NCBI GenBank assembly: GCA_015179125.1 | Contig: WHVA01000001.1 | Location: 248,001 to 312,000 of the forward strand | Reading direction: 5' to 3' | Length of the DNA stretch: 64,000 nucleotides | Origin: Gautieria morchelliformis | Taxonomy: Eukaryota > Basidiomycota > Agaricomycetes > Gomphales > Gomphaceae | The notes under the pieces: model-generated | The model's input: only the letters and a program-made list of their open reading frames with translations | The model's database searches: none | Told to the model about the DNA's origin: nothing | Shown: positions 1,547 through 61,709 of the stretch, piece after piece | Numbering within the stretch: position 1 is the first letter of the stretch | How the letters are laid out: each line of letters begins with the position of its first letter | Translations under genes and position numbers: made by a program

Positions 1547-2615
1547 TGTTGTGATAAACGCAATTATTCCACTCAGAATCATTTATATATAAAAAGAAAC
1601 TAATAAAAGAAGAAAAGAAAAACAAAAGAAAATTCAAAAGAAACAGAAATTATACTTATGACAGATGTCGGCGCAGACGACGATCACACAAAAATTATGT
1701 CATGCTATGTTACTTACAAATCGGGTGATATACAGAAGTTCGAGTGTCGACCACGTGCGGTCGATCAGGGACGGCGCGCCTATCAGGTGATGGCATCAGC
1801 CATGACGTCGACAGGCGCCAGGCCATAGGTACCGAGGGGTACGGGCACCAAACGCCCCAGAGAATAGTAGACTGCGCAGGGGTACAGGGTGTTGTGGAGT
1901 GACCTGAGAAAGTCACCTGCAACACATATACTCAATCAGCTGCCACACAAGAGGGGCACAGGGACAGCGGCCCCATCTCCAAGCCCAGCATATATGCTGG
2001 GCAGGGTAAAATCAAATCCATTTCCTATTTGAATCCCATGACACGTCTGACTGATTACTATCCTAACAACATGTGGACAGGGGCTTTGTATACTAGGTAC
2101 AGATCTCTATTTCAAAGCCCAGACAATCCTGACACTATCCCCATCACCCCATGACTTTATGACTATAAATTAGTCACCCCTTAGCTACAAAGTAGTTTTT
2201 CGACCCATCCATCCAATATCTTGAACACTAGTAGTTACTATCAACATAGTATAAATAGCTAGTACAAATGTATGAACGAAACTATCCAGAATCGATTATT
2301 CTGCCTCCTGAAATTGCTGTAGTCTTGTTTGATAGCTACAGAACTCAGATCTTAATAATTTACTCCAAATCTTCGTTGAGAGTCTATTATCACTGCTTAC
2401 TCTATACTACCTTAAAAGCGAACGCTTTTGATTTGACTATCCCTTGGATCAACACCATTTTTCCACTGACGCGGTCACGTGACCCTCGTTCATCAGTGCT
2501 GGACGCGCCTCAAAGGGCTTAGTCAGCACATAACAGAGAGGCGAATACAGTGGTTTCAACCACTAAGCAATAGATTTCATTCGTTAAAAGGCACTAATTG
2601 ATATTTTAATCTAAA
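1547..2615. mobile_element. Solo-LTR-like insertion inside LINE ORF2
   Basis: The block is flanked by the 5-bp direct repeat GCCAT (1542-1546 and 2616-2620), as expected for LTR-element integration. It begins TGTTGTGATAAA and has no coding capacity. Bases 1547 to about 2454 resemble 6239-7150 along most of their length, including a shared palindrome around CAGCATATATGCTG (about 1986-1999). A possible LTR end, ATCAACA, lies at 2454, matching the TGTTG start as an inverted pair; the last 160 bp (2455-2615) have no counterpart in the second copy and may be extra LTR sequence or a separate insertion. Broken or solo remnant; the family was not identified. Confidence 0.55.
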
Positions 2616-3371
2616 AGCCATGTCTAGCGTGGTGTCAACCGGCAGGTGGTCACTGCGCGCTGGCTGGTCTTCTGGGACCGTTGTGCATTGGACTATGGTG
2701 TCTAAGAGCGCTGTGGACATAAACACGTTGTCGGTTCTCGTGTAATTGCCTGTGGTCTGAGCTATGAGTGGCGGTAGGTTCTTCGGCAGCGCCATTATCA
2801 GATCCCTCTCCACTGTGGCGTCTAGCAGGATCTGCGCTGCGTCTAGGTTGCTCCTGGTGAAGAGGTGCGTGTTCCTCGCTTCGTCCCATTGCGGATGGTG
2901 TCTGTTGAAATCCCCGAGCCAGATCATGCCCGCCAGTCGTTCACTCCGTCCGTGTCTTGTTTGTGTCTGTAGGTATTCGTCAGTCTTTTGTATACTTTCT
3001 GAATGCGCACAGTCGCAGTAAAAGTTTAGTATCAGCACTACACCTATTTGCGTTCTGACCCTGACCCCCGTCATGTCTGGATGTCCTACGTCTACTGCCT
3101 CCCACTCATCTGTCTTTATTCTCTTGTTTATCATTAGCATCGATCTGGTCCGTTTCTCCCTGTCCTTGTAGTGTGTCGCCGGGTATATCGTGTGCCAGTG
3201 ATGGCTTGCGCTCGTGTTTCCCAGGAAGTCGATGTATGGTTCCTGTACAGCTATTATGTCGTATTTATTCGGCGGTGATTTTCCTAGAAGATCATTAGTG
3301 GCGTGTAATGACTTATTTATGTTCTGCTGCCTTATCCTTAATGTTGCCACTGGTGTTTGGTCGCTATTCAT
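2616..3371 (-). CDS. LINE ORF2, N-terminal APE-type endonuclease domain
   Basis: Nicks the target DNA to prime reverse transcription. The ATG at 3371-3369 overlaps the ORF1 stop. Motifs in order are QQNINKS (Asn), VQEPYID (catalytic Glu), WLGDFNRHHPQWD (GDFN), YTRTDNVF and SDHLPVD (Asp-His). All the expected APE residues are there, so the domain looks intact to the point of interruption. The coding sequence is cut by the insertion at 1547-2615; the five bases GCCAT occur on both sides of that insertion, and the LINE reading frame is coherent across them when the duplication is counted once. Beyond the breakpoint the frame runs on only to a stop at 2577. Confidence 0.85.
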
Positions 3372-20587: not shown

Positions 20588-23500
20588 TTAATATATTCCG
20601 ATTTGCTCGTTGAGGATCTTCACTCTAGGACTAGAAAGTCCTTTGGTGAGGATATCTGCCAACATTTGTTCGGTTGGCAAATAAACGAGCTTGGCTTGTT
20701 GATTTTTGATTATATCTCGAAGGAAATATAATCTGATGTCGAAATGTTTGGTTCTCGTGTGTTGTTGAGTGCCATACGTGATGGCAATGGCTGATTGATT
20801 GTCTGAATAAATTTTGATGGGTCTGTTCAGTGGTTGGAATATTTCAGAAATAAAATGGCGCATCCAAAGAGCCTCTTTGCCCGCATGGGTCAGGGCGACG
20901 AATTCGGCTTCAGTTGATGAGAGGGCTACTATCGACTGTTTCTGGCAACTCCATGAAACAGTGCCTCCATCAATCTGAAATAAGTATGCCGAATACGAAC
21001 GCCTATGACTCTGTGAACCCCAATCTGCATCTGAATACCCCATCAAACCGTCTCGATTTCTTCCAAGTGTGAGCTTGTAATGCTTCGTGCCTTTCAAATA
21101 TTTGAAGACACGTTTGACTGCATTCCAATGTGTGCCACCTGGATTTTCGAGGAATTGCGAAAGCAATGACACCGCAAATGCAATGTCAGGTCGAGTGGCT
21201 ACAGCTGCCCACATCAGTGATCCTATAGCTTGCCTGTATGGAAACTTCGACATGGCTTTCTTGCCTCTCTCTGTAGAAGGACACTGGTCTTTTGATAATT
21301 TAACAGCTGGATCAAGGGGCGTAGCATAAGTCTTTGCATCTTCGAGATTGAATTTCTTGATGATCTTCTCGATGTATGCAGGTTGTGAAATTGCAATAGT
21401 TTTCTTCTGCCAGTCTCTTTCGATTTTGAGATTCAATAGCCAATGAATCTCGCCTAGATCTTTCATACTGAAGACCTGAGCAAGATCTCGTTTGACTTCG
21501 TCCAGGACTGACTGATTCTCAGCTGTGATGGTGAGATCATCCACAGCTGTTGCAATGATCACATGCCCCTTTCCGCCACGTCTATAAAATACAGCCCCAT
21601 CTGTGGCTGACGTAGTGAATCCTAATTTGTGGAATTCACCACTTAGACGTTTGTACCATTCCCTTCCAGATTGTTTGAGGCCATAGAGTGCTTTCTTCAA
21701 AGGTAGCACTTCGTCTTTGTCTCTAGACTCATATCCATACAGCTGCTTCATGTAAATAGGTTCAGGTAGTGTAGCATTGAGGTATGCATAGTCCACGTCC
21801 ATTTGATGGATAGGCCAGTCATTCCTAGCAGCAATGGCGCATATGATCCGTAGGGAGGATAACCGAGCAACAGGTGAGTATGTCTCATCATAGTCGACTC
21901 CAAACTTCTGTGTGAAGCCTTGGGCAACCATTCTCGATTTAGGCATTATTGGTTTCCCTTCTGGGTTACGCTTCCAAAGGTAGACCCATTTATTACCGAC
22001 AATATTGGCTCCAGGAGGTGGTTTGGCTCGTTCCCACACTCCCTTGTCGATTAGGGCCTCATACTCTTTGTCCATTGATTTCTTCCATATAGGATTACTC
22101 AGAGCTTCGTCTGCATTGCTAGGTTCAATTTGACTCAAATCCGGCGCCTTGTTATTGTTTTGACCGTCGGTTAGAAACGCACTGATGGCACACTCATAGC
22201 TACTGATGCCATCAATCTCGGAGGATAATTCTTTGTCGAATAAAACTTCTTTATGGTCCTCAACGTCCTCGTAAGCTAGCGTAGTCATATGTGCGCCAGC
22301 TTGTCTCTGGGTTTGAGATCTTGTTACGGGACCTGATGGGGCCGGCTGCACTTGTTGTTGATGGATCCTTTCGCTTCTCCTTATCGGTTCAGCTTCTCTA
22401 GGTCTGTCATCAACTCCCTGAATAGGTTGCAGCTTTTCAAGATATTCCTCTGGTGCATTTTCATCAATTTCTTCGATCTTTGCCTCTTCGCTGACTAAGC
22501 GACCGGGCACAGGCACTGATGCCGGAATGGCCTTCTTCTCCTCTCTAGACGTAGGTAGCTTGGATTCCTCAATAGAAATGATTGGGACCTTTCCCTTCTT
22601 CATCTCTGAATCAAACACAACATTCCGCTCGACAGAAACTCTGTGCGAGTCAGGCCAATAAACATAATGACCATGGCTCTGCGCAGAAATTCCTATCCAC
22701 CGAGCTCTCTTGGCACAAGCTTCCAATTTATCTCCCTGAGTGACCTTAACATAGACTTCAGTTCCCCACGCGTGAATGTCTTTGAGATTCGGTTTCTCAT
22801 GGTGGATCATCTCGTAGGGCGTTTTATCCGGTAGAGCTCTTGTGTGCGTCCTGTTCCTAAGATAATTGGCATGCTGTATTGCATAGCCCCATAATATCTT
22901 AGGAAGGCCTGATTCTAACAGCATGGCACGAGTTCTCTCAGTGAGAGTTCGGTTCAGACGTTCGGCAACACCATTAGACTCTGGTGTGTCGTGTACCGTC
23001 AACTGATGCTTCGTGCCTTGTTTGGCTAGATGCTGTTCGAATTCAGAGCTCGTATACTCGCCCCCTCGATCAGAAACAAGTGCCTTGATGTGCACATTTC
23101 TCTGTCGAAGCATTAAAGCCTCATAGAGCTTGTACTTTGAGAATGCTTCTGATTTGTTCGCCATGAGATAGATCACCGATTCTCTTGAGTAATCATCGAT
23201 AAAGGAGACATAATATGACTTCTTATCGATTGTGAGGTGCCTTGCAGGTCCCCAGACATCAGAATAAATTCTGTCACCGAATTTTGACGTTCGGTCTCTG
23301 GGTTCTCGAGGAAGAGGTTTGCGTGCAATCTTGGCCTGAATACACGCATCGCAGACAATTCTATCGCCTGTGGAGCTCAGTTCAATGCCCAATATCATGC
23401 CATGATTTAATAGATGTTGTAGGGACTTCTGTGAGATATGCCCCATTTTTTGATGAATTTCCATGGCAGACAAACACATATGGGCTTGAGCACTTGGTGA

Positions 23501-24832
23501 CTGGAGGTCTAGTCGATATAAACCATTGACCTTCGGTGCTTGCATCAATACCTTTCCAACAGCGTTAGATATCGTGCATTTCTGGCCACCGAGTCGAATG
23601 TCGTAGCCAGCATCATCGCACCGACCGATCGAGACGAGGGTAGCAGCAATCTTTGGTGCATAGTATGTATCTTGCAACATGACTTCTACTGTTTTATCTC
23701 CAACCTTGTTGGATAATACGAGCAGTCCTGAACCAAAGGCATCAAAAGTGCCTTTGTTGGCTGCTCGGATAGTCCTCGGCTGTGAGAATTGACAGTAGTT
23801 CCTCAATAAATTTTTGTGAGGAGTCATATGCGATGTCGTTGCGGTGTCGAGTATAACTATAACTCCTGAGGATGTGCTCAGATTGAAATTAGAGCACTCG
23901 TCAAAATTGGTGAAGGCAAGATGCCCATCACCGCTTTCCTCAGAAGAGGACTCTTCTTCGGCAACATTCGCTTTTGCTTTACCCTTCTTCTTCTTCTTGG
24001 CTTTGGCTTTTTTCTTCTGACGTGGTCCTTGACCTTCTTTACCACCTCCTTTAGCCCAGCAATTTTCGATAGAATGTCCAGGCTTTTTGCAGTTGGTGCA
24101 TACATGCGCCTTCTGCCCCTTCTGGTCCTTCTTAGTAGATGAACCAATAAACACCTGCTCTTCTTGCGGGAGTGTTTTCTTCCTGTCATACTGAGCCTTT
24201 AGTACCCTAATAATATTATCAGGGACCAATGGCATCCCGCATTCTTCAAGCGAAGTGGTAAGGGCATTCATGACTGCCTCATAGGATGGTGGAAGTGATG
24301 CAAGGATGATGTCCATGAATTCTTCTTCGGAAACTCTGGCTCCCATCTCATTAAGACGAGCATATAGGTCTTGGGCCTTGTCCAAATGATCTCTCAAGTC
24401 TCCATCCTCAGGACATCTCATACTGCGGAGTTGTCTCTGCAGGCTGGTGAGGACCATCTTGGGCTTTTTGGTCATCTCATTGACCAGTGCATCCCAAGTC
24501 TCTTTTGCTGTCTTCTGCTTCTGTAGCATCAGGGCTAATGACTCTGACACTGAGACGATGATTTGGGTCTTGGCTTGTCCTTCTCTAGCAAGGTATCTCT
24601 CCAGCTTCTCCTCAGCCTTATCCATCTGAGTTTCCTCAGCTTCTGTAAGAATATGGCCTGGGGGCATAACTGGAGGATCAGGAGGACGAGTGACTCTCCC
24701 TTCTACATGCTTGAGTAGATTTTTGGACTCGAAATAGCTGATGAGAGTGGCTCGCCACAATGGCCAATTACTTCCATCAGTAGCAAGCTTCTCAACACCC
24801 AATAGCTTCTCAGAAGTGTCTCCGGGGCCCAT
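20588..24832 (-). CDS. Copia-A gag-pol polyprotein
   Basis: A single open frame of 1414 codons, the usual size for a fungal Copia polyprotein. Parts in order: a UBN2-type gag domain (residues about 10-230), the knuckle CTNCKKPGHSIENC (about 247-260), a protease-like segment with ILDTATTSHM, a gag-pre-integrase HH..C..C region, the integrase core with YSDVWGPA and VSDRGGEYTSSEFE, RT with VAQGFTQKFGVDYDETYSPV and AVDDLTI, and RNase H with GYSDADWGS and KHFDIRLYFLRD. The start ATG at 24832 lies inside the primer-binding site. Expected to yield particle, protease, integrase and RT after self-cleavage. Confidence 0.9.
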   Translation of the reverse strand: MGPGDTSEKLLGVEKLATDGSNWPLWRATLISYFESKNLLKHVEGRVTRPPDPPVMPPGHILTEAEETQMDKAEEKLERYLAREGQAKTQIIVSVSESLALMLQKQKTAKETWDALVNEMTKKPKMVLTSLQRQLRSMRCPEDGDLRDHLDKAQDLYARLNEMGARVSEEEFMDIILASLPPSYEAVMNALTTSLEECGMPLVPDNIIRVLKAQYDRKKTLPQEEQVFIGSSTKKDQKGQKAHVCTNCKKPGHSIENCWAKGGGKEGQGPRQKKKAKAKKKKKGKAKANVAEEESSSEESGDGHLAFTNFDECSNFNLSTSSGVIVILDTATTSHMTPHKNLLRNYCQFSQPRTIRAANKGTFDAFGSGLLVLSNKVGDKTVEVMLQDTYYAPKIAATLVSIGRCDDAGYDIRLGGQKCTISNAVGKVLMQAPKVNGLYRLDLQSPSAQAHMCLSAMEIHQKMGHISQKSLQHLLNHGMILGIELSSTGDRIVCDACIQAKIARKPLPREPRDRTSKFGDRIYSDVWGPARHLTIDKKSYYVSFIDDYSRESVIYLMANKSEAFSKYKLYEALMLRQRNVHIKALVSDRGGEYTSSEFEQHLAKQGTKHQLTVHDTPESNGVAERLNRTLTERTRAMLLESGLPKILWGYAIQHANYLRNRTHTRALPDKTPYEMIHHEKPNLKDIHAWGTEVYVKVTQGDKLEACAKRARWIGISAQSHGHYVYWPDSHRVSVERNVVFDSEMKKGKVPIISIEESKLPTSREEKKAIPASVPVPGRLVSEEAKIEEIDENAPEEYLEKLQPIQGVDDRPREAEPIRRSERIHQQQVQPAPSGPVTRSQTQRQAGAHMTTLAYEDVEDHKEVLFDKELSSEIDGISSYECAISAFLTDGQNNNKAPDLSQIEPSNADEALSNPIWKKSMDKEYEALIDKGVWERAKPPPGANIVGNKWVYLWKRNPEGKPIMPKSRMVAQGFTQKFGVDYDETYSPVARLSSLRIICAIAARNDWPIHQMDVDYAYLNATLPEPIYMKQLYGYESRDKDEVLPLKKALYGLKQSGREWYKRLSGEFHKLGFTTSATDGAVFYRRGGKGHVIIATAVDDLTITAENQSVLDEVKRDLAQVFSMKDLGEIHWLLNLKIERDWQKKTIAISQPAYIEKIIKKFNLEDAKTYATPLDPAVKLSKDQCPSTERGKKAMSKFPYRQAIGSLMWAAVATRPDIAFAVSLLSQFLENPGGTHWNAVKRVFKYLKGTKHYKLTLGRNRDGLMGYSDADWGSQSHRRSYSAYLFQIDGGTVSWSCQKQSIVALSSTEAEFVALTHAGKEALWMRHFISEIFQPLNRPIKIYSDNQSAIAITYGTQQHTRTKHFDIRLYFLRDIIKNQQAKLVYLPTEQMLADILTKGLSSPRVKILNEQIGIY

Positions 24833-34457: not shown

Positions 34458-36785
34458 GTGATGATTCCACGCAGTCGAAGATGGACACGAGCGACGAGCT
34501 CGAGGTCCACACCCCAGGTGCAGCCCAGCGACACGATGGCTGACGCTACCCTGGCCCTAGAGACCAGGACAATGGAAGACGGAGAGATCGTAGATCTCAC
34601 CGCCCTCGTCCCCTCAGTAGCGGACGAGGAAAACCCCGACCACGTCTCGTCGAGCGTGGCCGAAGAAGAGATGACGTCGAGCAATGAGCCGGCGCCGCCC
34701 CCCCATCTCTCTCTGCCCAAGGACAAAGGAAAGGGCAGAGAAGTCTCGCCGTCGTCAGACGGTAGAGCAACAACGTCGAGGCGGGCACAAAGCCACGATG
34801 CAAACCGACGCTCACGAAGCAGAGCGACGACGATCGTCCCTGAAGGAGGACGACGGCAAAAAAGACGAGCCCCAGATGATGGTCAGAACTCGGAGTACTC
34901 AAGCTCTAGTCGCAAGAGCTCGAGGGCTCACGCCATCGACCACGAGATGGCAGAAGCCCTGAACAAACAGGTGCAGGCTGCACTGCACCGAAGTACACTG
35001 ACGCGCCACAAGCACGATCAGCTGGCATCGCAGCTTGACAACGCCGCCGCCGCCCTAATGGCCATCGGCAAGGAACTCCACCAGGCGGAGGAGGTCAGGC
35101 TGCAAGACGCAGCCACGCTGGAGGATGTCCAGAAAGCACTCCGCCCACGCGGGGAACACGACGCAACTCGTCCGAGCTCACGACAGTCCGCAGCTAACGA
35201 AGGCAGTCGCGACGCGAGCCGAAAGGAGCGAGACAAGCAGCGAATGCCGCCGCCAGCCGTCCCGGTCGACCAGGACGTAAGGTTCGGGAACGAACCTCAG
35301 GAACAACCGGCTGCCCCAACGGACAGCCGAAAGACGATCCAACAGATCGTTAGGGATCAGGTCGCCTCAGAGCCTGACTATGAAATGACGACCGAGAGCT
35401 TAGAGCTCGAAGTTGCACACTGGCAGCGTAAAGAAGCCGCAGCCGCGCGCCGCCACACACGGGCACTCGAGCTACTAGCGAAGAACGCTGAAGAAACGGT
35501 GGCCCACAGCCACACTGCTCAGCTACCCCACGAGCAGCTCACGCAAGCCGTACAAGACACACGGCAAGCACGCGCAGCCTACAACAGCAGGCTACGGATC
35601 CACAACGCGGGACTGACCGGGGACACCAGGCACAAAACGTCCCCGGAACCGGGAGCACAAAATGCTCCCGATCCTGAGCCCGACCCGGGCCCGGGGCCCA
35701 TCAGGGCATATAACAGCCTGCCCCACGTGGCATCACAACCGCGCGAGCGATCCATGGCCCCAACAGAAGGCCAGGGAATCCCTGACCAGGCCGACGTGGT
35801 ACCAATGGAGCCGTACAACGGGATCACACGGATGATCCGCGTGGCGCTGGCAGACGCCGTGGACACAGACCCGGAGAAGTCTGTGCTAGCGAAGGCCGGC
35901 GTAAAATTAGCCCACCCCGAGCCATATGCAGGGGGATCGGACCTCGAAGAGTTTGAAGTCTTCGTGGCAGCCATCCTACGATGGCTAAAAATGAACTGCC
36001 TCCTAGGGCCAACCAGCATTGACACGCAGGTCGGCTATGTGGGCACTCGCCTCACCGGCGAAGCCCAGGAGTGGTTCTTTCGAAACATTGAACGATTCGA
36101 TCGCCAGGTCCGCAGCTGGACGCTGGAATCAGTGATGCAAGGCCTTCAAAAGAGGTTCCTGCACACACTGACATACCATCACGCATCGAATAAATTCGAC
36201 GCGGTCATGCAAGGCATGAAAACCGTTCAGGAGATGCTGAACGAGCTCACGAAATACGCGGCACGTATGATACAGCCGCCAGACGAGTACACGTTCCGGA
36301 GAGGGTTCATATTGGCGCTACGCGAAACGCTGCGCAACGAAGTACTCAAAAAGGGCTATAATGCCGAGAGCAGCTCAATAGAGCAACTCTTCGAGACGGC
36401 CCGAATGATCGAGGAGGCATCCCGATACAACATGGGGATGCGCCGCGCAGAAAGCGCAGCAGCAACGGCAAGCGCCGCCCGGCTCACAGGGAGCAAGCCG
36501 TTGACACAAACGGGCCTGACCAGGCCCAGCCTGATCGCAAGAAGCGGGACAGGTCAATGGCTACCGCCCTCACGCCCAGCACAAGCTGGACGCCCGCCTG
36601 AAGCTAAACAGCCTCAAGCGTCAGGATCGTCCCCGCGACCTGCCCCACCGACAAAAATGTCGGGCCGGCACAACGACAGGCCCAGCGGCAGCCAAAGCAT
36701 CACCACATGCTTTGAATGCGGCCAACCTGGCCACAAGCAGGCAGAATGCCCCGGCTTAGGTCCGGTATCAGGACAGCGGCTGTGA
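34458..36785 (+). pseudogene. Gypsy-4 gag
   Basis: 775 codons. The true start may be the internal Met at 34536 (MADATLALETRTMEDGEIVD). A charged, Arg/Ser-rich and helical N-terminal half precedes the gag domain (about residues 490-660; AHPEPYAGGSDLEEFEVFVA) and a terminal knuckle CFECGQPGHKQAEC. An acidic stretch (36786-37098) follows in the next open frame. Part of a broken element. Confidence 0.75.
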
Positions 36786-37101
36786 GACACGATGGTGAAA
36801 CCGAGGATCCGGAGATGGATCCCGATCAGAACCCTCTTCAACAGATTGATGAAGAGGGGGACGGTGATCCCCAACCCAACGACACTCGGGATAACGGAGA
36901 CACGCCCGCTGAAGAGTGGGACCCTGAGGTGTCCCAATACTATGAGTGGGACGAAGAGGTGGAGGACACCACCTACAGGTCCAGCGTGATCAGGTTCGCG
37001 CTGGAAGACGAAACCACCACGAAAGTCATGGCGGCACGCGCATCGGTCACGCCAGACAAGGCGGCCGAGCCAGTGTATCACCACCGAAGCAAACACCGAA
37101 C

Positions 37102-39302
37102 CACTGGAGGCATGGCAAAATTTCTCAAGTCAGGAAACCCCTTGAAAATTCTATGGAAATTCCACGTTTCTTGAGAGTTTCCTAGGATGGGAAATTTAGA
37201 GGAAATTTAATGTTTTACAAGGGTTTCCAAAGTTCAGGAAATTGTATAAAAATTGTAAAAATATGGTCCAGGAAATCGTGAGGAAACTGAGTCCAGAAAC
37301 TGACAGTTTAACCATGATTTCCTGTCTAAAGAAATCATGAGGAAATTCTAAATTTCCTCAGAGTTTTTTGGTACAGGAAAATATTAGGAAATTCTGCAAA
37401 TCTTGGCAGGAAATCTTGTGAAAATTTTATATTTCTCTATGATTTCCTGACTCTGGAAATTATAGTAAATATTCAGTTTCTAGGAGGAGGAAATTCACAA
37501 TATCTCAAAGATTTCCTGAGGATTTCCTGGGTTGGGGAATTGTCTAGAAATTGGAATAGTGTGTTGACCACAGTCACGTGACCTGGCCTCGTCTTAAATC
37601 ATGGTTTGCTAGCCTTTGAAGGCATGGAATTGTATTTTTTTTTGGCTAGTATGATGGATGGGTTCTGACCATCATTATTTTCAACATTCAAATGGTCGAT
37701 CGGTTGTAGCTGCGCAGGATGAGTCACCCTTTCCCAGGCTGAGGTGCAGTGAACTGCGGAGCTCATGTGATGTGTCTACAACCACCCATGCTTTGTAAGT
37801 ATTTCCCAGGCTGAGTTACGGTGAAAGCCGAATGGAAGTCCACCCGAACTCAGCATGGGAAATCGAAGCCCAGCGTGGGAAAGGTTACTCATCTTTCGGA
37901 GTTACATGCGATCGGCGACTCGAAAGGTGAAAATTATGGTGGTCAAAAATGCACAAATATTATTTTGCGCGGATGTCTTCCTGCGACTCGCGAAGACCAG
38001 CGCAAGATTAGTGTACAGCGCCATACCTCAACGCTGTCTTATCCCTTTCGTACATCCACACTCGCATATCCATTACTGTACCTCTGCATCCCCATATCTA
38101 CTCTGTCGAAACTTGAGCGATAGGATTTCATCAGATGAGTGACTTTTTTGCATTTCACCTGGCTAGCTGGCTAGCCTTCCATGAGCACACTTGCGTAGTG
38201 ATGGAAAATTGACATCACGACTATACAGAATAGTAATGTGAGACTGTCCTTGACAGATGCTCGGCGGGTCGGCATGACGCATGACGCACGACCCAGCCAA
38301 AAGCTTGCAAGCTTTGGCTAACTCGTGCGTCATGCCGACATGGCAAGCGCACGCCGAACGACATATTTGTCACTCGTGGCCTACAACCACCCATAGACAC
38401 CCATACCCAGGGGGCGCGCGGTTCCATTTTCGCGCGCAAAATAATATTTGTGCATTTTTGACCACCATAATTTTCACCTTTCGAGTCGCTGATCGCATGT
38501 AACTCCGAAAGATGAGTAACCTTTCCCACGCTGGGCTTCAATTTCCCATGCTGAGTTCTGGCGGACTTCCATTCGGCTTTCACCGTAACTCAGCCTGGGA
38601 AATACTTACAAAGCATGGGTGGTTGTAGACACATCACATGAGCTCCGCAGTTCACTGCACCTCAGCCTGGGAAAGGGTGACTCATCCTGCGCAGCTACAA
38701 CCGATCGACCATTTGAATGTTGAAAATAATGATGGTCAGAACCCATCCATCATACTAGCCAAAAAAAAATACAATTCCATGCCTTCAAAGGCTAGCAAAC
38801 CATGATTTAAGACGAGGCCAGGTCACGTGACTGTGGTCAACACACTATTCCAATTTCTAGACAATTCCCCAACCCAGGAAATCCTCAGGAAATCTTTGAG
38901 ATATTGTGAATTTCCTCCTCCTAGAAACTGAATATTTACTATAATTTCCAGAGTCAGGAAATCATAGAGAAATATAAAATTTTCACAAGATTTCCTGCCA
39001 AGATTTGCAGAATTTCCTAATATTTTCCTGTACCAAAAAACTCTGAGGAAATTTAGAATTTCCTCATGATTTCTTTAGACAGGAAATCATGGTTAAACTG
39101 TCAGTTTCTGGACTCAGTTTCCTCACGATTTCCTGGACCATATTTTTACAATTTTTATACAATTTCCTGAACTTTGGAAACCCTTGTAAAACATTAAATT
39201 TCCTCTAAATTTCCCATCCTAGGAAACTCTCAAGAAACGTGGAATTTCCATAGAATTTTCAAGGGGTTTCCTGACTTGAGAAATTTTGCCATGCCTCCAG
39301 TG
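37102..39302. mobile_element. Long-palindrome CACTA-like non-autonomous DNA transposon, 2201 bp
   Basis: Left arm 37102-37971 and right arm 38433-39302 are each 870 bp and are inverted copies with only a few differences seen (about 99 percent identity); the spacer is 461 bp. Both ends read CACTGGAGGCATGGCAAAAT. AAC is duplicated on both sides (37099-37101, 39303-39305), the 3-bp target size typical of CACTA/EnSpm. The outer 450 bp of each arm is packed with repeats of an AGGAAATT-type motif and the inner part has repeated CCCAGGCTGAG words, resembling subterminal transposase sites. There is no transposase. The spacer has a further hairpin around AGCTTGCAAGCT (38300). Inserted in Gypsy-4. Confidence 0.8.
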
Positions 39303-42221
39303 AACGCGGCCAACGCGTCTGCGGAGTGAGAACCATACCCTATCGGGGTACTGGGAAATAAACGGTGTAAAAGCCCACTGCCTGCTAGATAGCGGCTGCG
39401 AAGGGGTACTGCTGTCCCCCGAATTCACGCGAGCTACAGGGATGAAGACATTCTCCCTGGAGCAACCAATCGCGCTGCAGCTAGCCTGCATAGGCAGCCG
39501 TTCCACGATCAACTATGGAACGAACGCGACCATCAAGTTTGGTCGCGGGAAATACGACGAATACTTCGATGTAGCAAACGTCGAATATTACGACGCCATC
39601 TTAGGGACACCGTTCCTAAGGAGATTCAGCATAACCCTGGACTTCTCGAGCCCAGGGACGATCCGCAAGGGAAACGAAGTGATCCCCACGGGCAAGGTCT
39701 CATTCAACGATGACGAATCGAAGAACGAGGACAAAGGGCCATGGGTGAGCAGGATCACCCAGGCACCGAAGCCGAACCTGGCTCATTGAAGCCAGGAGGA
39801 CGAGTCACGGGACGACTTGTCCTCGAACTCACCCTACAGTCGTAGGGAGAGACACTCTCACCTAACGGTGAAAGCGATGGGAAAGAGGAAAGTGGGCCCA
39901 TGCGCCGCGGGACCTAATAGACGCCAACAGCGCCTAACGGCTTCTAAGCCAACCATTACCATCATCCTCACGGATGATGACCTTCCTCGCCTCCGCGAGG
40001 AATGGATGGAAAGAATCACTGACCTAGTCAGTGGAATTCCATTAGAACTCCCGCCACTGCGGGAGATCAACCATGAGATCAACCTAATTGATCCCAACAA
40101 GCACATGTGGTATCGACTACCGAAATTCCCCGAACACTTCTGAGAGGAACTGTCGGCCAAGATAGAACGATACACCACTGCAAAGTGGTGGATTCAGGCA
40201 GTAGCGCAGCAGGCAGTGCCCATGCTGTGTGTGCCGAAGACGAACAGTACATTGAGAACCATCTTCGATCTGCGCCAGCAGAATGAAAACACGGTGAAGG
40301 ACGTCACGCCCTTCCCGGATCAGGATATCATACGCAGCGATAGGGCTCGCGGCCGATATCAAACTAAACTCGATATGTCAGAAGCATACGAGCAGATCCG
40401 GATCCATCTGGATCACGTAGCAAAGACAGCCTTTGCCACGATCCTCGGCACCTTCAGGAGCCAGGTGATACAGATGGGGGACTGTAACGCCCCATCAACA
40501 TTCCAACGACTGATGACAGCCATTTTCCGCGACTGCATAGGTCGCTTCATCCATGTCTACATGGACGACATCTTCATATTCTCGCTCTCAATACGAGAGC
40601 ATGAAGAACATCTCTACATCGTCTTTGACAGACTGAGGAAGAACCACCTCTTTCTGAGCAAGAAAAAGGTGGACCTCTACTCCATCCGAATGGAGTGCCT
40701 CGGCCATATAATCGATGGCCGAGGGGTACATGCCGACGAGGATAAGATGCAACGCATCTGTGAGTGGCGCAGGCCACGGATGTTCAACGACGTCCAGTGT
40801 TTCCTCCGGCTCGTACAGTATCTGGCACACTACATGCCGGATGTTAGCGCATATACCACCCCGCTATCGGGCTGTGCTCGTAATAACCGTCCATTCGAAT
40901 GGACACCACTGCTCGACAAATGCTGGCAAAGCATTAAGGCGTTGGCCTGTAAGGCCCCGATCCTGCGTCCAGTAGACGCAAGGTGTCCAGAGCCGATCTG
41001 GGTGATCACCGACAGGTCAAAAGCCGGTGTCGGTGTGGTCTACGGCCAAGGTCCTGACTGGAAAACTTGTCGACCAGCCGGCTTCTTGTCAAAGAAGTTC
41101 AGCGTTGCTCAGCAACACTACCGGACTCACGAGCACGAGACTATCGCGGTGCTCGAGGCTCTCATGAAATGGGAGTACAAACTGCTCGGACGAAGGTTCA
41201 CCCTCGTCACAGACCACAAGGGACTCGAGTACTTCGAGACCCAAAAGAGCCTATCTGACCGACAGGTCAGATGGTGGGAGTTTCTCTCCCGGTTCAATTT
41301 CAACACCGTTCATGTTGACGGTGTAGAGAACAAGGTAGCGGACTGCCTGTCGTGCTACTATGAGAGCGACAGGAGTGATGACAATCACCCGGACCACGTC
41401 TTCATGAACGCGGATGCGCGTTTAGATCCGGACGGTGAGTTATTGCCCCGACCGGTATGTCGAGCTGCGAACAGCGGCGACAAGACGCTCTAAATGCCTC
41501 GCCGAGAAGACAGAGGCGAGAGTAACGGAAGCCGCCGCATTAAACGAGGGCTCACTAGAGCCCGCGAACGTCGCCGCGTCCAGCGACGACGACGATGACG
41601 TCAGAGCCATCGCCGCAGGGAATGACGGCGCACCCCTGCGCCAGATCGTTGAGCAAGGCGTAGACCTGTCTAAGGTCCTACGAGACACGTACCATAGGGA
41701 CACCATGTTCGCAAAGATCATGGCGCACCCGGACGCGCACCCGAGATTCGGAATCCGGGACGGGCTGATCTGGACTAAGAATCAGCTCAAGAGAGACGTC
41801 ATTGCCCTCCCCCGCTCTGTTCTTCAAGGGGGGAGGAAGCTGATCAAAATTATCATCGATCAGGCACATCAGATAGTCGGCCACTACGGCCATCTGAAGA
41901 CTTTGAACTACGTTCGAAGAGCATATTGGTGGCCGGGCATGAACCCAGACATAGAAGCATTCTGCACATCGTGCGCGAGGTGTCAGATGACGAAAACCGG
42001 GCCACAACGGCCCAAAGGCCTACTACACAGCCTACCCATTCCGGATAGGCCGTGGCAGTCGATTGGCATCGACTTCATGGGACCCCTGCCCAAATATAAT
42101 GACTGTGACTACCTGATGGTAGTCATCGACCGACTAACGTCGCTCGTACACCTCGTGCCAACCACGACGAGCGTGTCAGCCAAGGGAGTAGCCTGGCTGT
42201 TTCTGAAAGAGGTCATCCTGC
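39303..42221 (+). pseudogene. Gypsy-4 pol remnants
   Basis: Protease with AHCLLDSGCEGVLLSPEF and an ILGTPFL flap near 39600, RT with VYMDDIFIFS near 40560, RNase H with ITDRSKAGVGVVYG (near 41010) and VTDHKGLEYFETQKSL, and integrase with an HH-CC zinc domain (HQIVGHYGHLKTLNYVRRAY, C..C near 41970) and IDFMGPLPKYND. The integrase stops in its core at the 42222 junction. Fossil with several breaks. Confidence 0.8.
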
Positions 42222-43570
42222 CAGGAGATAGTGAGTCCCGCGCCAAATTCGATCTCGGCATCGACTAATCAAATCTGTTAGTTTCCCGCAATAGGTATAA
42301 AGCATTGTCATGCACAAAGTCCAGCAGAACAAGCAAGTCTCGAGCTTGAAAACAAACTTACCGAAAGCAGTCTCCTGCAGGGTGCTGATGAGGACAGCAT
42401 TGATCCTGAGCCAGTTTTAGTACAAAATGGAGTGCAGGTCATATGAAACTCACGCCAAGACAGCGCCGGTAATAATTTTTTGAACAATAGGTTGCGCCAG
42501 AATGGGCAGCAGCAAATTAAGGCTGTCACCAGTGGCCACTGGGACGGCAAGCTGAGTGAAGTCCAGCGTTGTGGGATAGTCACCTGACAACCATCAGATG
42601 CTGACTGCCCCACAGGCCGAGATTAAACTCACTAATACATACCGCAGAATTCAAAATGATGTCAGACTGTAGCTATTTGAATGCTGCATCAACAAAGCTT
42701 GGGAGATTGAATCCCCTATGCAACGTGGCATTAGTACGGAACTATGAGGGACTGATGGAAGCCCACGTGAATATGTTGGCATTGTTCCCCTGCCTCTTTT
42801 GCGAGACCTTGGTTCCATCAGCGTCTGAGCTAGAAATATACTGAATCCCTCCCAGTGAAACAATCACATCTATTTGATCCGTCCTCTGGCCTGCCTGGAC
42901 AGTTAAACAGCGGAGAAGGGTAAAGATAGTTGGAGGGTCAAGGTTCATATTCAGGTCGAGCATCGGTGACGTAGTCGTTGATTTTCCGCTCGCAGGAAAG
43001 TTCGTGAAGGTCTGGATGGTGCCTAGGCTGAGCCCGTGTGACGTCACCATTGAATTGATGCTCCTGATGGTCAATCCTGCGCTTAAGGGGTTCTTGAGGT
43101 TGATGTTTACGTGAGCCATGTTGTTCTGCTTCCCAGTAGTGTTAAGAACTGATATCCATGGGTAAGTCGGGGAAGAATCATATATAGGATGAACATGGAC
43201 TCGTGAGAGCGGCGCTTGGCAGAAGGGTAGAGTTCAGCGCAGGGAGCATGGCGTTGATACTAAGACTCTCAAAGGCTTGAAGCAGGGAAGGAACCGCCGT
43301 ACTCCCGTTGAATCCCACGATCTGAAGCAATACGTCTGTGCCGCCTACAAATTCATTGAGTGTCTGCAGACCCTGCGGACTGTTGTTGGGCTGGAACCAA
43401 CCAGGCCAGCTGATGAAAGCACGAGCCAACAGTTTCCAGAGCGCACCTGGAAGGCGCTTGTAGCTGCCATTTTGTTGTTGCCCATGGCCAACGAGAGATT
43501 TGGGAGCAAAGTCGTTCCGAGAACAGCACCGTCCTGTATTAATTGCAAGGCTGAAAGGTGTGTTCAACTC
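42222..43570 (-). pseudogene. DUF3712-like host gene fragment, truncated at both ends
   Basis: Reading down from 43560, exon pieces match the fungal DUF3712 pattern: LIQDGAVLGTTLLPNLSLAM, an intron, PNNSPQGLQTLNEFVGG..LLQIVGFNGS, an intron (43200-43149, 52 nt), NNMAHVNINLKNPLSAGLTI, then LGGIQYISS, an intron with a CTAAT branch site, GFNLPSFVDAAFK, further exons (PTTLDFTQLAVPVA, LLLPILAQPIVQKIITGAVL) and DAEIEFGAGLTISWQDD at 42260-42225. The family consists of membrane-anchored proteins of unknown role. An in-frame TAG at 42675-42673 and an apparent frame change near 42590-42630 show decay. Both ends stop at foreign sequence (Gypsy-4 on the left, minisatellite on the right), so this is a captured or rearranged fragment. 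Confidence 0.65.
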
Positions 43571-43918
43571 AGGCTATCAGCGCAGGGGTGCGCTGACTGC
43601 GACGTGCACCAGCGCACGCATGCGCTGACAGCGCCGTTACCAACGCAAGCCTGCGCTGACAGCGACGTGCACCAGCGCACGCTGCGCTGACAGCGCCGGG
43701 TACCAGCGCATGCCTGCACTGACAGCGCCGGTACCAGCGCAAGAGTGCGCTGACTGCGACGTGCACCAGCGCACGCGTGCGCTGACAGCGCCGGTACCAG
43801 CGCAAGGGTGTGCTGACAGTGCCGAGTACCAGCGCAGGCCTACGCTGACAGCGCCGGGTACCAGCGCAAGCCTGTGCTGACAGCGACGTGCACCAGCGCA
43901 CGCTGCACTGACATCGCC
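43571..43918. repeat. GC-rich minisatellite, about 11 units of 31-32 bp
   Basis: Tandem units of the form GCGCTGACAGCG followed by CCGGTACCAGCGCA or ACGTGCACCAGCGCA. Two unit types alternate irregularly: a GTACC type and a GTGCACC type. Related units recur near 44750-44815. No spacers of unique sequence, so not a CRISPR array. Translations of this block are repetitive and not genes. Confidence 0.9.
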
Positions 43919-45280
43919 TACGGTGGTCGGTGTGCACAAATATTATCCCGACTCCATGCCAAAGGGAAAAATTCCCATTCGCACGGCATTGCATTTTGCG
44001 CGCACACGCAATTCACCGCAAAGTGTTCCCGCGTGCGCTGGTGCTTTCTGGCATAGTCACGTGACCTGCCCTCGTCTTACATCATGATTTGCTAGTCTTT
44101 GAAGGCAGGGAATTTTTTTTTTTTTTGGCTAGTATGATGGATGGGACCCTTATAAATGATTCTAGGTTGATTTTCTGGCCCTACATAAGATTCTGATCAT
44201 CATTATTTTCAACATTCGAGTCGTCGATCGGTTGTAACTCTGCAGGATGGGTCACCCTTTCCCAGGCTATGGTGCAGTGGACTCCGGAGGTCATGTGATG
44301 CATCTACAGCCACCCATGTTGTGTAAGTATTTCCCACGCTGAGTTACGGTGAAAGCCAAATAGATGTCCGAACAAACTCAACGTGGGAAATACTTACACA
44401 ACATGGGTGGTTGTAGACGCATCACATGACCTCCGCAGTTCACTGCACCTCAGCCTGGGAAAGGGTGACTCATCCTGCGCAGTTACAACCGATCAACGAC
44501 TCGAATGTTGAAAATAATGATGATCAGAACCCATCCATCATACTAGCCAAAAAAAAAAAAAATTCCATGCCTTCAAAGGCTAGCAAACCATGATTTAAGA
44601 CAAGGCCAGGTCACGTGACTGTGCCAGAAAGCATCAGCAACACTTTGCGGTGAATTGTGCGTGCGCGCAAAATGCAATGCCACGTGAACGGGAGTTTTTC
44701 CCTTTGGTGCGGGCGCAGGATAATATTTGTGCAAACCAACCACCATAAGTGCCGGGTACCAGCAACCACGTGCGCTGGCAGCGCCGGTACCAGCGCACCG
44801 TCCAGCGCATGGTCAACACACTATTCCAATTTCTAGACAATTCCCCAACCCAGGAAATCCTCAGGAAATCTTTGAGATATTGTGAATTTCCTCCTCCTAG
44901 AAACTGAATATTTACTATAATTTCCAGAGTCAGGAAATCATAGAGAAATATAAAATTTTCACAAGATTTCCTGCCAAGATTTGCAGAATTTCCAAATATT
45001 TTCCTGTACCAAAACCTCTGAGGAAATTTAGAATTTACTCATGATTTCCTTAGACAGTAAATCATGATGGTTAAACTGTCAGTTTCTGGACTCAGATTCC
45101 TCACGATTTCCTGGACCATATTTTTACAATTTTTATACATTTTCCTGAACTTTGAAAACCCTCGTAAAAAATTAAATTTCCTCTAAATTTCCCATCCTAG
45201 GAAACTCTCAAGAAACGTGGAATTTCCATAGAATTTTCAAGGGGTTTCCTGACTTGAGAAATTTTGCCATGCCTCCAGTG
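43919..45280. mobile_element. Second palindromic CACTA-like element, incomplete on its left
   Basis: The right outer arm (44806-45280) matches the right arm of the element at 37102-39302 and ends in the same terminus, TTTTGCCATGCCTCCAGTG. An inner palindrome centres near 44385: CTCAACGTGGGAAATACTTA right of it mirrors sequence left of it, and 43920-44080 mirrors 44600-44750. The outer left arm is missing and its place is taken by the minisatellite and the DUF3712 fragment. T-rich and A-rich runs (44108-44126, 44550-44562) are part of the arms, not LINE tails. Confidence 0.65.
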
Positions 45281-52975: not shown

Positions 52976-55900
52976 TCAGAAGATTATGCCGTCATCACGT
53001 GACCCCTTGAGGTACCTGAGCGCGTGCTTGATCGCCGTCCAGTGCTCGGTTCCGTAAGTAGTAGTGAATTGGCTCAGATGTTGTACGGTAAAGGCCAAAT
53101 CAGGTCGCGTGCTAAGTGCTGCATACATGAGTGATCCGATCGCCTTGGCATAGGGTACTTCGGCAGTTGGACCTGTTGAGTCCATGGGTGTCGTGAGTTT
53201 GATCATTTTATGCAGAGGTGTAGATACGGAATGTGCCGTTGTCATGTTGAATCGATCGAGTATGATGTCGATGTAATGTCCTTGAGACATGATCAGTGTT
53301 CCCTCATCCCTATTCCTCTCAACTCTAATTCCCAATATTTTCTTCATTTCTCCTAAATCTGTTAAAGGGAATTTTCCATGAAGCTCCCCCTTGAGCTTAA
53401 TCATCCCTCCTTTGGAGTCAGCAAATAGTCCAAAGTCGTCCACATATACTGATATGACTTCGATTGAGTCCTTATCTTGTCTGATGTAGACGCATTCATC
53501 GGCTGTACTTTGATGGAAGCCGAGATCGAGTAGTAATTTGCGTAAGCGCTGATGCCAAGCTCGCCCCGATTGCTTGAGTCCATAGAGCGCTCTGTATATT
53601 CTTAGAACGCGTCCAGATCCATCGTCAAAACCGTCGGGCTGGCGCATGTAGATCTCCTCATCTATGGTTGAATTGAGGTAGGCGCCTTTGACATCCATCA
53701 TTTCGATTTCCCAATCGAGTGTGTTTGCGATCGCTAATAGAACACGTAGTGAATCGAATTTGACCACGGGTGAGGTTATCTCGTAGTAATCCATCCCTGG
53801 CCTCTGTGTGAATCCTTGAGCCACAACCCTCGCTTTAGCCTTATCGAATTGTCCGTCCGGTTGTGTTTTGACAGCGTATACCCATCGGCAACCGATAGCT
53901 ACTCGTCCGGGTGGTAGTTCTGTTAATTCCCATGTTCCTAATGTCTTGTGTTGATACATCTCAATTTCCATTGCTTTCTCCCAGATCGGCGCATCATCAC
54001 GTGATACCGCCGCTCTGTAATTCTCAGGTTCAGTGACGATTTCTCTCGTTATGTAAACCTGCTCGGTGCGTCCTGAATTATTCAGCTTCCGGTAATCCGG
54101 TCTTTGAGTGATACGCGCGCTCCGTCGAATCTGTGGAGCTGGCGCTTGTTCAGGTGGATCAGGAACGGGTGTTGTCTGGGGTGATGACGTCTGTGGGGTA
54201 GATGTGATCGGGTCCGGCACATGCTCGCGTGGTGAGTGCTCCCCCTCGAGCGGTGCCGTGTCGTCATCGTCGTTATCTGGGATAGGGTAGAGTCGGTTGT
54301 CATTTTCGTCAAATGTAATGTTCCTAGAGACTTGAACGTGCTTTGAGGCTTTATTGTAGTACCTCCAGGCCTTTGCATGTTCAGCTACTCCGACGAAGAT
54401 ATGTTCTTCTGCCTTTGGATCAAGTTTGGCTCGACGTTGATCCGGCACCATAACCCAACAATTTGTCCCGAATTCCTCTAGACGTGCTATGTTCGGCTTC
54501 TTGCCGAATAGTGCTTGGAACGGTGTTGCGTCATCTCCAAGCGCTCGCGTGGGTGATCGATTTTTGATATAACACGCGTAAGCCACGGCCTCGGGCCAGA
54601 GTATTTTTGGCAGGTTCTTGGCAAATATCATTGCCCGTGCGTGCTCGAGTAAGGTCCGGTTGAGTCGTTCGGCGATTCCATTCTGGGCTGGGGAGTATGG
54701 AGCTGTGGTCTCCATGATAATGCCATATTTTGCACAAAATTCCTTGAAATTTTTATTGACATATTCCCCTCCATTATCTGAGCGAAACCTCTTCAGTTTC
54801 TGACCTGTTTGGGTCTCGAGGAATGCCTTGTACGTCTCGAAGTGTTTGAGCGCTTCATCTTTGGCGCTCCCAAAATAGATGACCGTGTACCTCGATTTGA
54901 TGTCCGTGAAAGAATAAAAGTATTTTTCACGTGATGGTCCCTCGGTCTGGGCAGGCCCCCATACATCGGATACTGTCAGGTCACCGACCTGTTCTACAGT
55001 GTCCTCGGCTCTTTTGGGGAACGGCTCCACATGCCGCTTGCCTTGTATGCATGCCTTGCACTGGCTCGGCTCGTTTGACTCGTCGATCTCAAGTCCGGTG
55101 ACTAGATCATTAGATTTCAACATCTTTATAGAATTTATGTTGACGTGCCCGAGTATCCTGTGCCATTTGTCCCATGACCGTCCTTTTGCCGCTGCGGCAA
55201 AGTCCCGTGCCTCGACTGATCGAGTGACCCGTGCCTTCATACAGAATAGCCGCCCGCGCTTCTGTCCCTGTGCGAAGGTAACTCCGGCGCGTGATTTGAA
55301 TTCGACGCCGGTGCCTGAAAATGTGGCCGTGTTGCCCTTATCAGTTAAACGCCCTACGCTGATAAGGTTGTTCGGCGCATCCGGTGCATGTTTGACGTCA
55401 CGTAGCTCGATCGTGTTCGTCTTGGCGCCGATCTTGAATTCCATGTATATAGTGCCTCGGCCTTGTGTATGTAGTACCGCACCGGGTGAAATTCCTTCGA
55501 TTTCTGATGGTTCCTCGGCATAGCTAGCGAAATCATTTCGGCTTCTAGCTATGTGTGTTGTTGCCGCTGAATCGGCTAACCAGTCGGATGCAGATATAGC
55601 ACTGTATGCTACCTCCTTAGATACAAATGCGAAGTCCTTTTCTTCTGCTTGTTTGACTGTTTCTTTGTTCCCTGGTTTGAACCATTTCGGTGCTTGGCCC
55701 TCCTTGCCGCCACCTTTCGCCCAACAGTCCTTCACGTAATGACCCTTCTTGCCGCAATTTCGGCACTTTCCCTTTGTTGCTCCTGAGTCATCTTTCCTGG
55801 TCCTGTGACGCTGTTGCGCCTTAAGCGCCGTCTGCCGTGCCGATCCAGCTTTCCGTGCTCGATCCTCATCGAGGACCCGAGCTATTAATATATCAGCTGT

Positions 55901-56446
55901 TGTCCCGGCTCCACTGGCGTTTACTGCCGTAATAAACGCCGACCAAGAATCTGGTAATGACGTCAGCAACGTGTTCGAGAACTCGGTGTCACTGATGTAA
56001 TGCCCCCGTGCATTCAATTCCTGTTGAATGCCGCGGAGCTTGCGTACGTGCTCCTCCATGTTCGCGCCGTCCTCGGCAAGCGTCCGGAAGAAGTCTCTTC
56101 GGAGATTTACAATCCCCACTGCTCCCTTAGATTCGAATATTGCTTGTAGACTAGTCCATACAGCAAACGCAGACATCGTCTGATTGATGTAAACTAGTTG
56201 TTCATCGGCAACTCTGAGGCAAATCTCTTTTCTAGCCTTCTTGTCCTTCCTTCTCCAATCGTCGATCTCCTGCTGCTCGCTCGCAGTGACGTTGTCGGCA
56301 TCTGCCGGTCTCGGTTCCGTCTCCCTGCCGATAGCCACGTCCCACAGATCTGAGTCATCGAGTATCCACTCGAGCCGCCGGCGCCACGCCGCGTAATTGT
56401 CCCCGTTCAAGGGGTCGATCTTGTACGTGTTGTTGCTACTCGACAT
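52976..56446 (-). CDS. Copia-B gag-pol polyprotein (main open frame)
   Basis: 1156 codons from MSSSNNTYKIDPLNGDNY. Parts in order: a UBN2/DUF4219-type gag, the knuckle CRNCGKKGHYVKDC, protease (WLADSAATTHIA), gag-pre-integrase (HRILGHVNINSIKML), integrase (LTVSDVWGPAQTEG, FRSDNGGEYVNKNFKEF), and RT (VAQGFTQRPGMDYYEITSPV, ISVYVDDFGLFAD). The RNase H part is recognisable downstream (52500-52970) outside this frame. Fossil or near-whole copy; see the element entry. Confidence 0.88.
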   Translation of the reverse strand: MSSSNNTYKIDPLNGDNYAAWRRRLEWILDDSDLWDVAIGRETEPRPADADNVTASEQQEIDDWRRKDKKARKEICLRVADEQLVYINQTMSAFAVWTSLQAIFESKGAVGIVNLRRDFFRTLAEDGANMEEHVRKLRGIQQELNARGHYISDTEFSNTLLTSLPDSWSAFITAVNASGAGTTADILIARVLDEDRARKAGSARQTALKAQQRHRTRKDDSGATKGKCRNCGKKGHYVKDCWAKGGGKEGQAPKWFKPGNKETVKQAEEKDFAFVSKEVAYSAISASDWLADSAATTHIARSRNDFASYAEEPSEIEGISPGAVLHTQGRGTIYMEFKIGAKTNTIELRDVKHAPDAPNNLISVGRLTDKGNTATFSGTGVEFKSRAGVTFAQGQKRGRLFCMKARVTRSVEARDFAAAAKGRSWDKWHRILGHVNINSIKMLKSNDLVTGLEIDESNEPSQCKACIQGKRHVEPFPKRAEDTVEQVGDLTVSDVWGPAQTEGPSREKYFYSFTDIKSRYTVIYFGSAKDEALKHFETYKAFLETQTGQKLKRFRSDNGGEYVNKNFKEFCAKYGIIMETTAPYSPAQNGIAERLNRTLLEHARAMIFAKNLPKILWPEAVAYACYIKNRSPTRALGDDATPFQALFGKKPNIARLEEFGTNCWVMVPDQRRAKLDPKAEEHIFVGVAEHAKAWRYYNKASKHVQVSRNITFDENDNRLYPIPDNDDDDTAPLEGEHSPREHVPDPITSTPQTSSPQTTPVPDPPEQAPAPQIRRSARITQRPDYRKLNNSGRTEQVYITREIVTEPENYRAAVSRDDAPIWEKAMEIEMYQHKTLGTWELTELPPGRVAIGCRWVYAVKTQPDGQFDKAKARVVAQGFTQRPGMDYYEITSPVVKFDSLRVLLAIANTLDWEIEMMDVKGAYLNSTIDEEIYMRQPDGFDDGSGRVLRIYRALYGLKQSGRAWHQRLRKLLLDLGFHQSTADECVYIRQDKDSIEVISVYVDDFGLFADSKGGMIKLKGELHGKFPLTDLGEMKKILGIRVERNRDEGTLIMSQGHYIDIILDRFNMTTAHSVSTPLHKMIKLTTPMDSTGPTAEVPYAKAIGSLMYAALSTRPDLAFTVQHLSQFTTTYGTEHWTAIKHALRYLKGSRDDGIIF

Positions 56447-61368: not shown

Positions 61369-61709
61369 CACTGGAGGCATAGCAAAATTTTCTGGTCTGA
61401 AAAGCTGTTCAAAAAACTGTAAAGATATTCCAATTTTTTTCAGTATTTTTTATATAAACAAACTTTGACAAAATTTTGTGTTTTTGTTAGAATTTGTTGA
61501 GCAAGAAAATTGTAAAAAAAATTTAAAGTTGTTTTCAGGGTTTTTTATGTGTTTTTATATGTTTCTTTGTGCTTTCCAACAAATTCTAACAAAAACACAA
61601 AAAACATTTCAAGTTTTTTTTTACATAAAAAACACTGAAAATTTTTGGAATATCTTTACAGTTTTTTGAACAGTTTTTCAGACCAGAAAACCTTTCTATG
61701 CCTGTAGTG
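61369..61709. mobile_element. CACTA-type MITE, 341 bp
   Basis: Left end CACTGGAGGCATAGCAAAAT, right end (inverted) CACTACAGGCATAGAAAG, with arms that continue as an inverted repeat for over 60 bp (CTGTTCAAAAAACTGTAAAG on both). CCA is duplicated on both sides (61366-61368 and 61710-61712). AT-rich, no coding capacity. The first 12 bases are the same as in the long palindromes at 37.1-39.3 and 45.28 kb, so it belongs to the same transposase system, with the right end showing a true CACTA. Confidence 0.85.

Follow-up and report, generated by a model that had tools for sequence, protein, structure and literature searches.

Most foldback elements have been described as Mutator-like, Galileo being one of the exceptions (PMC4079207). 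For Galileo, two copies are reported whose arms are more than 99% identical to their partners and diverge by about 7% when the two copies are compared, and two chimeric copies with arms about 6% divergent and without matching duplications were ascribed to ectopic recombination (PMC2775673). Furthermore, the arms of Galileo extend by recruiting internal sequence, and the longest arms are found in non-autonomous copies (PMC3573991). In fungi, EnSpm families with 5'-CAC..GTG-3' termini and 3-bp duplications have been described, and transposases of the Plavaka and KDZ types are reported as well (PMC12730594).

Here we analyzed a palindromic element in a stretch of 64,000 nucleotides from Gautieria morchelliformis, which is referred to as the window in the following. 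We consider it probable that this copy is a non-autonomous member of a CACTA/EnSpm-type foldback family, whose arms have been homogenised from the ends inward.

The palindrome in the window and its insertion site

The element spans 2,201 bp (37102-39302) and consists of two inverted arms of 870 nt, the left one at 37102..37971 (+ strand, CACTG terminus pointing outward) and the right one at 38433..39302 (- strand), separated by a spacer of 461 nt (37972..38432, unstranded). Both termini read CACTGGAGG and both ends begin with CACTGGAGGCATGGCAAAAT. The trinucleotide AAC is found directly outside the left end (37099..37101) and again outside the right end (39303..39305), in both cases annotated without strand. 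The outermost part of each arm is a 469-bp end common to the subfamily, whose left copy (37102..37570, + strand) contains the motif AGGAAA/TTTCCT 16 times in both orientations and is identical to the right copy (38834..39302, - strand). A comparison of the complete arms revealed four mismatches in 870 positions (866/870 identical) and no indel, which confirms the near-perfect palindrome with CACTG ends and AAC duplication described in an earlier note on this DNA. Chance is no candidate for such a degree of identity. All mismatches are located within the innermost 130 bp of the arms, at arm positions 741, 744, 763 and 813, which pair 37842, 37845, 37864 and 37914 of the left arm with 38562, 38559, 38540 and 38490 of the right arm. 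As judged from the relatives C311, C239 and C1102 (copies are named by their contigs), the left arm has private changes at 741 and 744, and the right arm at 763 and 813.

The same three relatives explain the spacer. In C239, C311 and C1102, an uninterrupted terminal sequence of 1,331 bp aligns with the right end of the window copy at 98%, whereas the left end stops at 870 bp. Therefore, the copy is an internally deleted derivative of a longer palindrome, in which 870 bp of one end are bluntly joined to 1,331 bp of the other, and the spacer, corresponding to positions 871-1331 of the right-hand end in longer relatives, is right-end sequence whose left partner was deleted. The deletion junction (37971/37972) is blunt: in all three relatives, the sequence that continues one side has no base in common with the other side. 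The equal length of the arms, which had been taken as a sign of recent formation or upkeep, loses its weight, since the left arm is shortened in comparison with the right end and since equality is partly a matter of definition imposed by the delimitation of an inverted repeat. The predicted fold of the spacer (z -3.55) and a scan for bacterial promoters and terminators have no bearing on the explanation, and an Rfam search of the 64-kb window returned nothing.

The element interrupts a Ty3/gypsy retrotransposon (34458..42265, + strand), which was recognized by domain matches in reading frames and whose parts we assume to belong to one element: a gag-side zinc knuckle with a weak Ty3-capsid match (34458-36785), reverse transcriptase and RNase H (40216-41490) and an integrase zinc-binding domain (41435-42265). 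The genome was searched with a 120-bp element-free junction containing one AAC, and 40 places were scored out of 766 first-look candidates; 36 of these 40 cover bases 1-120 with 94-97% identity. Four empty sites were aligned, all of them without a gap and each with a single AAC. Furthermore, the 2 kb on either side of the window copy show no mirror symmetry between the flanks. As other gypsy copies contain the uninterrupted site with one AAC, the window copy is a true insertion as a unit into the gypsy element, accompanied by a 3-bp duplication, and no fold of the assembly.

A fold-over of the assembly, or an equalisation of the arms by polishing, was considered as well, and two other contigs are suspect in this respect: C264 has a mirrored flank of 517 bp with 100% identity and C1102, at the site of C311, one of 56 bp. 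For the window copy we regard such an artefact as very improbable, as the flanks do not mirror each other, the target site is duplicated, the arms differ at four positions, a 461-bp spacer separates them and empty sites match the insertion point. The empty sites in the gypsy copies also argue against the artefact that had been named earlier as a possible refutation. The family members on C264 and C1102 are probably assembly folds at long palindromes; the right flank of C1102 is 98.7% identical to that of C311, and C1010 is located at the same site as C264 (left flank 99.7%).

The window as a whole (1-64000) is rich in nested retrotransposons, gypsy pieces among them. It also contains long copia reading frames at 20588-24832 and at 52976-56446 and a piece of an endonuclease-type LINE (2577-3371).

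Family members and their termini

With up to two mismatches allowed, the 20-bp end has 326 matches in the genome (165 forward and 161 reverse), compared with none for the reversed control. This is the genome-wide count that the earlier note had called for, and other copies with the same ends and with duplications do exist. A stricter pattern of the 36-bp type yields 77 ends (41 + 36), and the left end as query (879 bases) at least 86 matching stretches, with 40 scored out of 276 first-look candidates. The description of the family given here is based on a small part of these copies.

The members examined range from 341 bp to about 20 kb, and most of them have long inverted repeats. An exact 3-bp duplication flanks 7 of 14 two-ended copies of the subfamily, namely C1 (the window copy), C793, C1026, C382, C311, C239 and C143; no exact duplication is present in the other seven (C226, C36, C604, C1010, C510, C264 and C1102). 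The duplicated sequences seen are AAC, ATA, TCT, TTA, CTA, AAG, TCA and CCA in addition to varied sites of the MITEs. C239, flanked by AAG/AAG, is palindromic from end to end over 4,872 bp, and C382 over 1,836 bp. The statement that elements of this superfamily rarely carry arms of the length found in the window does therefore not apply to this family.

Shorter relatives carry the variant end CACTGGAGACATGG, and two of them have one end of the window type. The 20 sampled ones are 551-586 bp in length and consist of inverted repeats throughout; each arm of 275-293 bp differs from its partner by 34-61 substitutions (about 79-88% alike). Exact 3-bp duplications were found for 18 of 21 short relatives, that is, for 18 of the 20 sampled and not for the additional C102. 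In the window, a palindromic MITE of 341 bp with a related terminus and a CCA/CCA duplication is located at 61369..61709 (+ strand), and the right end of a larger relative has remained at 42217..45280 (- strand, terminus at 45280), which contains a 31-bp repeat array (43575-43918) and sequence common to C264 and C793. GC-rich arrays of this 31-bp unit (GCGCTGACAGCG...) occur in the larger members inside and beside the arms and in both orientations.

One member departs from the general architecture. C143 (C143:164089-166116) has a length of 2,028 bp and a TCA/TCA duplication, but its inverted repeat covers only 40 bp, and family sequence is found only at its ends (65 bp and 92 bp). Long arms thus seem not to be needed for mobility, which is a hint and not a proof, as C143 may have lost its arms after insertion. 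About 1.8 kb of its interior are unlike the other members read, possibly a captured segment.

Among most of the copies found, identity over the outer 469 bp is about 99%. AGGAAA/TTTCCT occurs 16 times in this end, whereas in 1000 shuffles it was seen 1.3 times on average and at most 6 times, and the inner arm (470-870) has none. The motif is present 11 times in one 576-bp MITE and 15 times in C102, and it is absent from the 341-bp MITE of the window. The termini of the CACT(A/G) type, the 3-bp target duplications and the subterminal motif repeats in both orientations fit with the CACTA/EnSpm superfamily. The CACTA-type assignment made before is supported by these three features, and the part that would complete it, a transposase belonging to the family, did not emerge from the search described below. 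Two arms of 870 bp in an element of 2,201 bp and their internally repetitive sequence make the window copy a foldback element as well, which does not extend to C143 with its 40-bp repeat.

Two other groups were considered and rejected. PIF/Harbinger came into question for the 3-bp duplication; the target site of this superfamily is TWA-biased, and such a bias is absent from the duplications seen. Plavaka elements have published termini of the types TGT..ACA or CATCA..TGATG (PMC12730594), in contrast to CACTG..CAGTG in the family described here.

Arm identity within and between copies

To describe how the arms relate to each other, distances were counted over the 469-bp core. Within a copy they amount to 0 (C1), 0 (C793), 1 (C1026), 2 (C382), 2 (C311) and 0 (C239), compared with a mean of 6.8 and a median of 5 between copies (range 0-26; 265 comparisons, less typical ends included). 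When the ends of nine copies were re-paired at random, the observed closeness was reached in 0 of 5000 shuffles, and the result was again 0/5000 in each case with eight, seven and six copies (C264, then C226, then C510 dropped). C264 and C1102 with their mirrored flanks and C1010, which shares the C264 site, were excluded from the inference on arm upkeep, except that C264 is part of the first permutation test. Hence the similarity is greater between the arms within a copy than between arms of different copies.

Along the arms, the mismatches are unevenly distributed. In C793 their number per 100 bp develops from the outside to the inside as 0, 0, 0, 0, 1, 1, 0, 0, 1, 1, 3, 3, 8 and 9 over 1.4 kb. 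The arms of C239 show no mismatch for 2,362 bp and then 31 at the centre, a concentration limited to a short central part that could be a spacer. The window copy is free of mismatches for 740 bp before its four appear, and in C382 the mismatches also rise inward. One-sided Kolmogorov-Smirnov tests for concentration toward the inside gave p values of 5e-4 for C1, 1e-11 for C793, 6e-48 for C239 and 7e-6 for C382. A simpler history would be that each copy is merely young, having arisen by a single inverted duplication of one end and having drifted since then without any conversion. This would be in line with the few mutations of the window copy and its private changes on both arms, and with C311, whose single arm substitution is located near the terminus, against the gradient. 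Even drift, however, predicts evenly spread mismatches and not the inward concentration of the four copies named. In addition, the arms of C793 differ by just 4 substitutions at 400-1000 bp, where C793 and C1010 are 2.5-9% apart per 100 bp. Taken together, we consider youth alone rather unlikely.

Toward the inside, the divergence between copies increases likewise. Mismatches are also concentrated there in two copies without duplications, C1010 and C604 (one-sided p values of 0.001 and 0.0006); the arms of C1010 are no closer to each other than to those of other copies, and the arms of C604 differ at 14 of 469 positions. Therefore, regional constraint or mutation explains part of the gradient, which is not peculiar to duplication-flanked copies. 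Purifying selection on ends that bind a transposase could provide such a constraint: the core is nearly invariant across most copies and dense in the repeated motif, the inner parts differ more, and the copies without duplications follow the same trend. As a full explanation of the outer identity, selection is improbable, more so than youth, as the arms within a copy have private variants in common to an extent that exceeds the family average, which is not expected from selection acting on single ends, and as the family ends of C143 have lengths of only 65 bp and 92 bp. Constraint alone thus leaves unexplained the region between 400 and 1000 bp of C793 and the private variants common to both arms of a copy.

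Copies without duplications differ in a second respect. Their core arm distances are 18 (C226), 14 (C604), 8 (C1010) and 2 (C510), and only 3 of 210 arrangements separate them as strongly from the six duplication-flanked copies (0, 0, 1, 2, 2, 0); the comparison of six with four copies is small and post hoc, and it omits C36, in which about 151 bp of the arms can be aligned, and C143 with its 40-bp repeat. In this small sample, missing duplications are associated with divergent arms. C510 is the exception, lacking a duplication and nevertheless having like core arms.

We favor homogenisation of the arms from the ends inward, which could proceed as follows. A transposase of the EnSpm lineage, supplied in trans, would cut at the CACTG ends, and the breaks would be repaired by copying the opposite inverted end of the same copy. 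Conversion tracts would then begin at the terminus and fade inward, so that the outer arms become near-identical, the inverted repeats are lengthened and deletion derivatives are generated. Crossovers between different copies would instead give rise to chimeras with divergent arms and without target duplication. On the other hand, the arms may just be young in each copy and not repeatedly converted, and polishing may have equalised them. The earlier suggestion of recent formation or upkeep by gene conversion is consequently retained in outline, as the arms covary within copies, and either of the two processes may dominate. More tentatively, and with the odds rather against it, we propose a CACTA-type foldback lineage in which terminal cuts by the transposase drive an end-anchored conversion of the arms and leave a gradient of identity, so that palindromes grow, stay near-perfect and spread at every size from 0.3 to about 5 kb.

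Candidate transposases, a possible small-RNA role and known systems

In search of a transposase, we found 79 matches to PF02992 (Tnp2), 135 Plavaka matches and likewise abundant KDZ matches in the genome. A comparison by eye with the ends listed (100 of 326 and 100 of 248) revealed no Plavaka, KDZ or PF02992 match between two paired family ends. A PF02992 match about 18 kb inside a single family end (C224:80810-99350) and a KDZ match about 1.6 kb inside another one (C155:160676-162740) are possibly autonomous partners or the result of chance nesting. The Tnp2 gene on C186, located near a family end, was rejected as the transposase of the family, as it is part of a nested CACTA element that ends in a different terminus, CACTG[C/T]AGGAAGA; 15 close relatives of this gene (83-96% identical) are near none of the ends listed. 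This shows no more than that CACTG-ended elements with Tnp2 exist in the genome.

The interiors of the larger members are occupied by other sequences. C1026, a 20.6-kb member flanked by TCT/TCT, has Helitron and copia domains, the former in frames of the Helitron replication/helicase type (Helitron_like_N, PIF1). Gypsy domains are present in C793 and C604, which share long gypsy-containing internal stretches that are about 90-96% alike; C186 holds part of the same gypsy. To judge from these sequences, the gypsy insertion may have preceded the copying of a composite element. C264 and C1010 contain 31-bp arrays and unnamed reading frames common to C793. For the interior frames we had presumed a captured DUF3712-like gene; two pieces were searched and gave no Pfam match.

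A different role has been proposed for the palindrome, which might supply hairpin RNA and thereby elicit the silencing of its relatives by small RNAs. If transcribed, the element would form a near-perfect hairpin of 870 bp, and the genome has 9 Piwi-domain matches at three loci (C948, C147 and C449) as well as a cluster on C14, where three RNase III matches fall within 1 kb, so that, as far as domain matches can tell, small-RNA machinery may be present. However, the element is embedded in an interrupted retrotransposon, numerous highly identical copies persist, and silencing would be a side effect and not the nature of the element. Such a role seems rather doubtful to us.

The homogenised CACTA-type foldback family that we prefer would offer, with its many copies, clear duplications and covarying arms, a countable system for the origin and upkeep of long inverted repeats, and C143 hints at the length of end that is sufficient for mobility. 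If true, a lineage with end-anchored conversion would provide a natural record of how breaks at transposon ends are repaired. In the host genome, near-perfect palindromes with lengths of up to 5 kb may be prone to rearrangement and may give rise to double-stranded RNA.

The inverted repeats of typical CACTA elements are short. The family described here resembles the fungal CACTA/EnSpm elements in the type of its termini and the 3-bp duplications, and it differs from them in arms of hundreds to thousands of bp and in that no transposase gene was found. Plavaka belongs to the same broad CMCT group and is abundant in the genome, but its termini differ (PMC12730594). At the level of titles and the opening of abstracts, the open papers searched name no CACTA foldback. 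Tetris of Drosophila virilis is similar in being a non-autonomous foldback element with tandem repeats in the arms, ends common with a MITE and no known transposase; its ends are different and its superfamily is left open in that paper (PMC4079207). Galileo, a foldback-like element of the P superfamily in Drosophila, has 7-bp duplications, in contrast to the CACTG ends and 3-bp duplications found here, and an inward gradient of identity is not mentioned in the accessible parts of PMC2775673 and PMC3573991. Nevertheless, Galileo and the family of the window have in common long inverted repeats of variable length, arms that are more alike within a copy than between copies, and a lack of matching duplications in copies with divergent arms, which for Galileo are described as chimeras.
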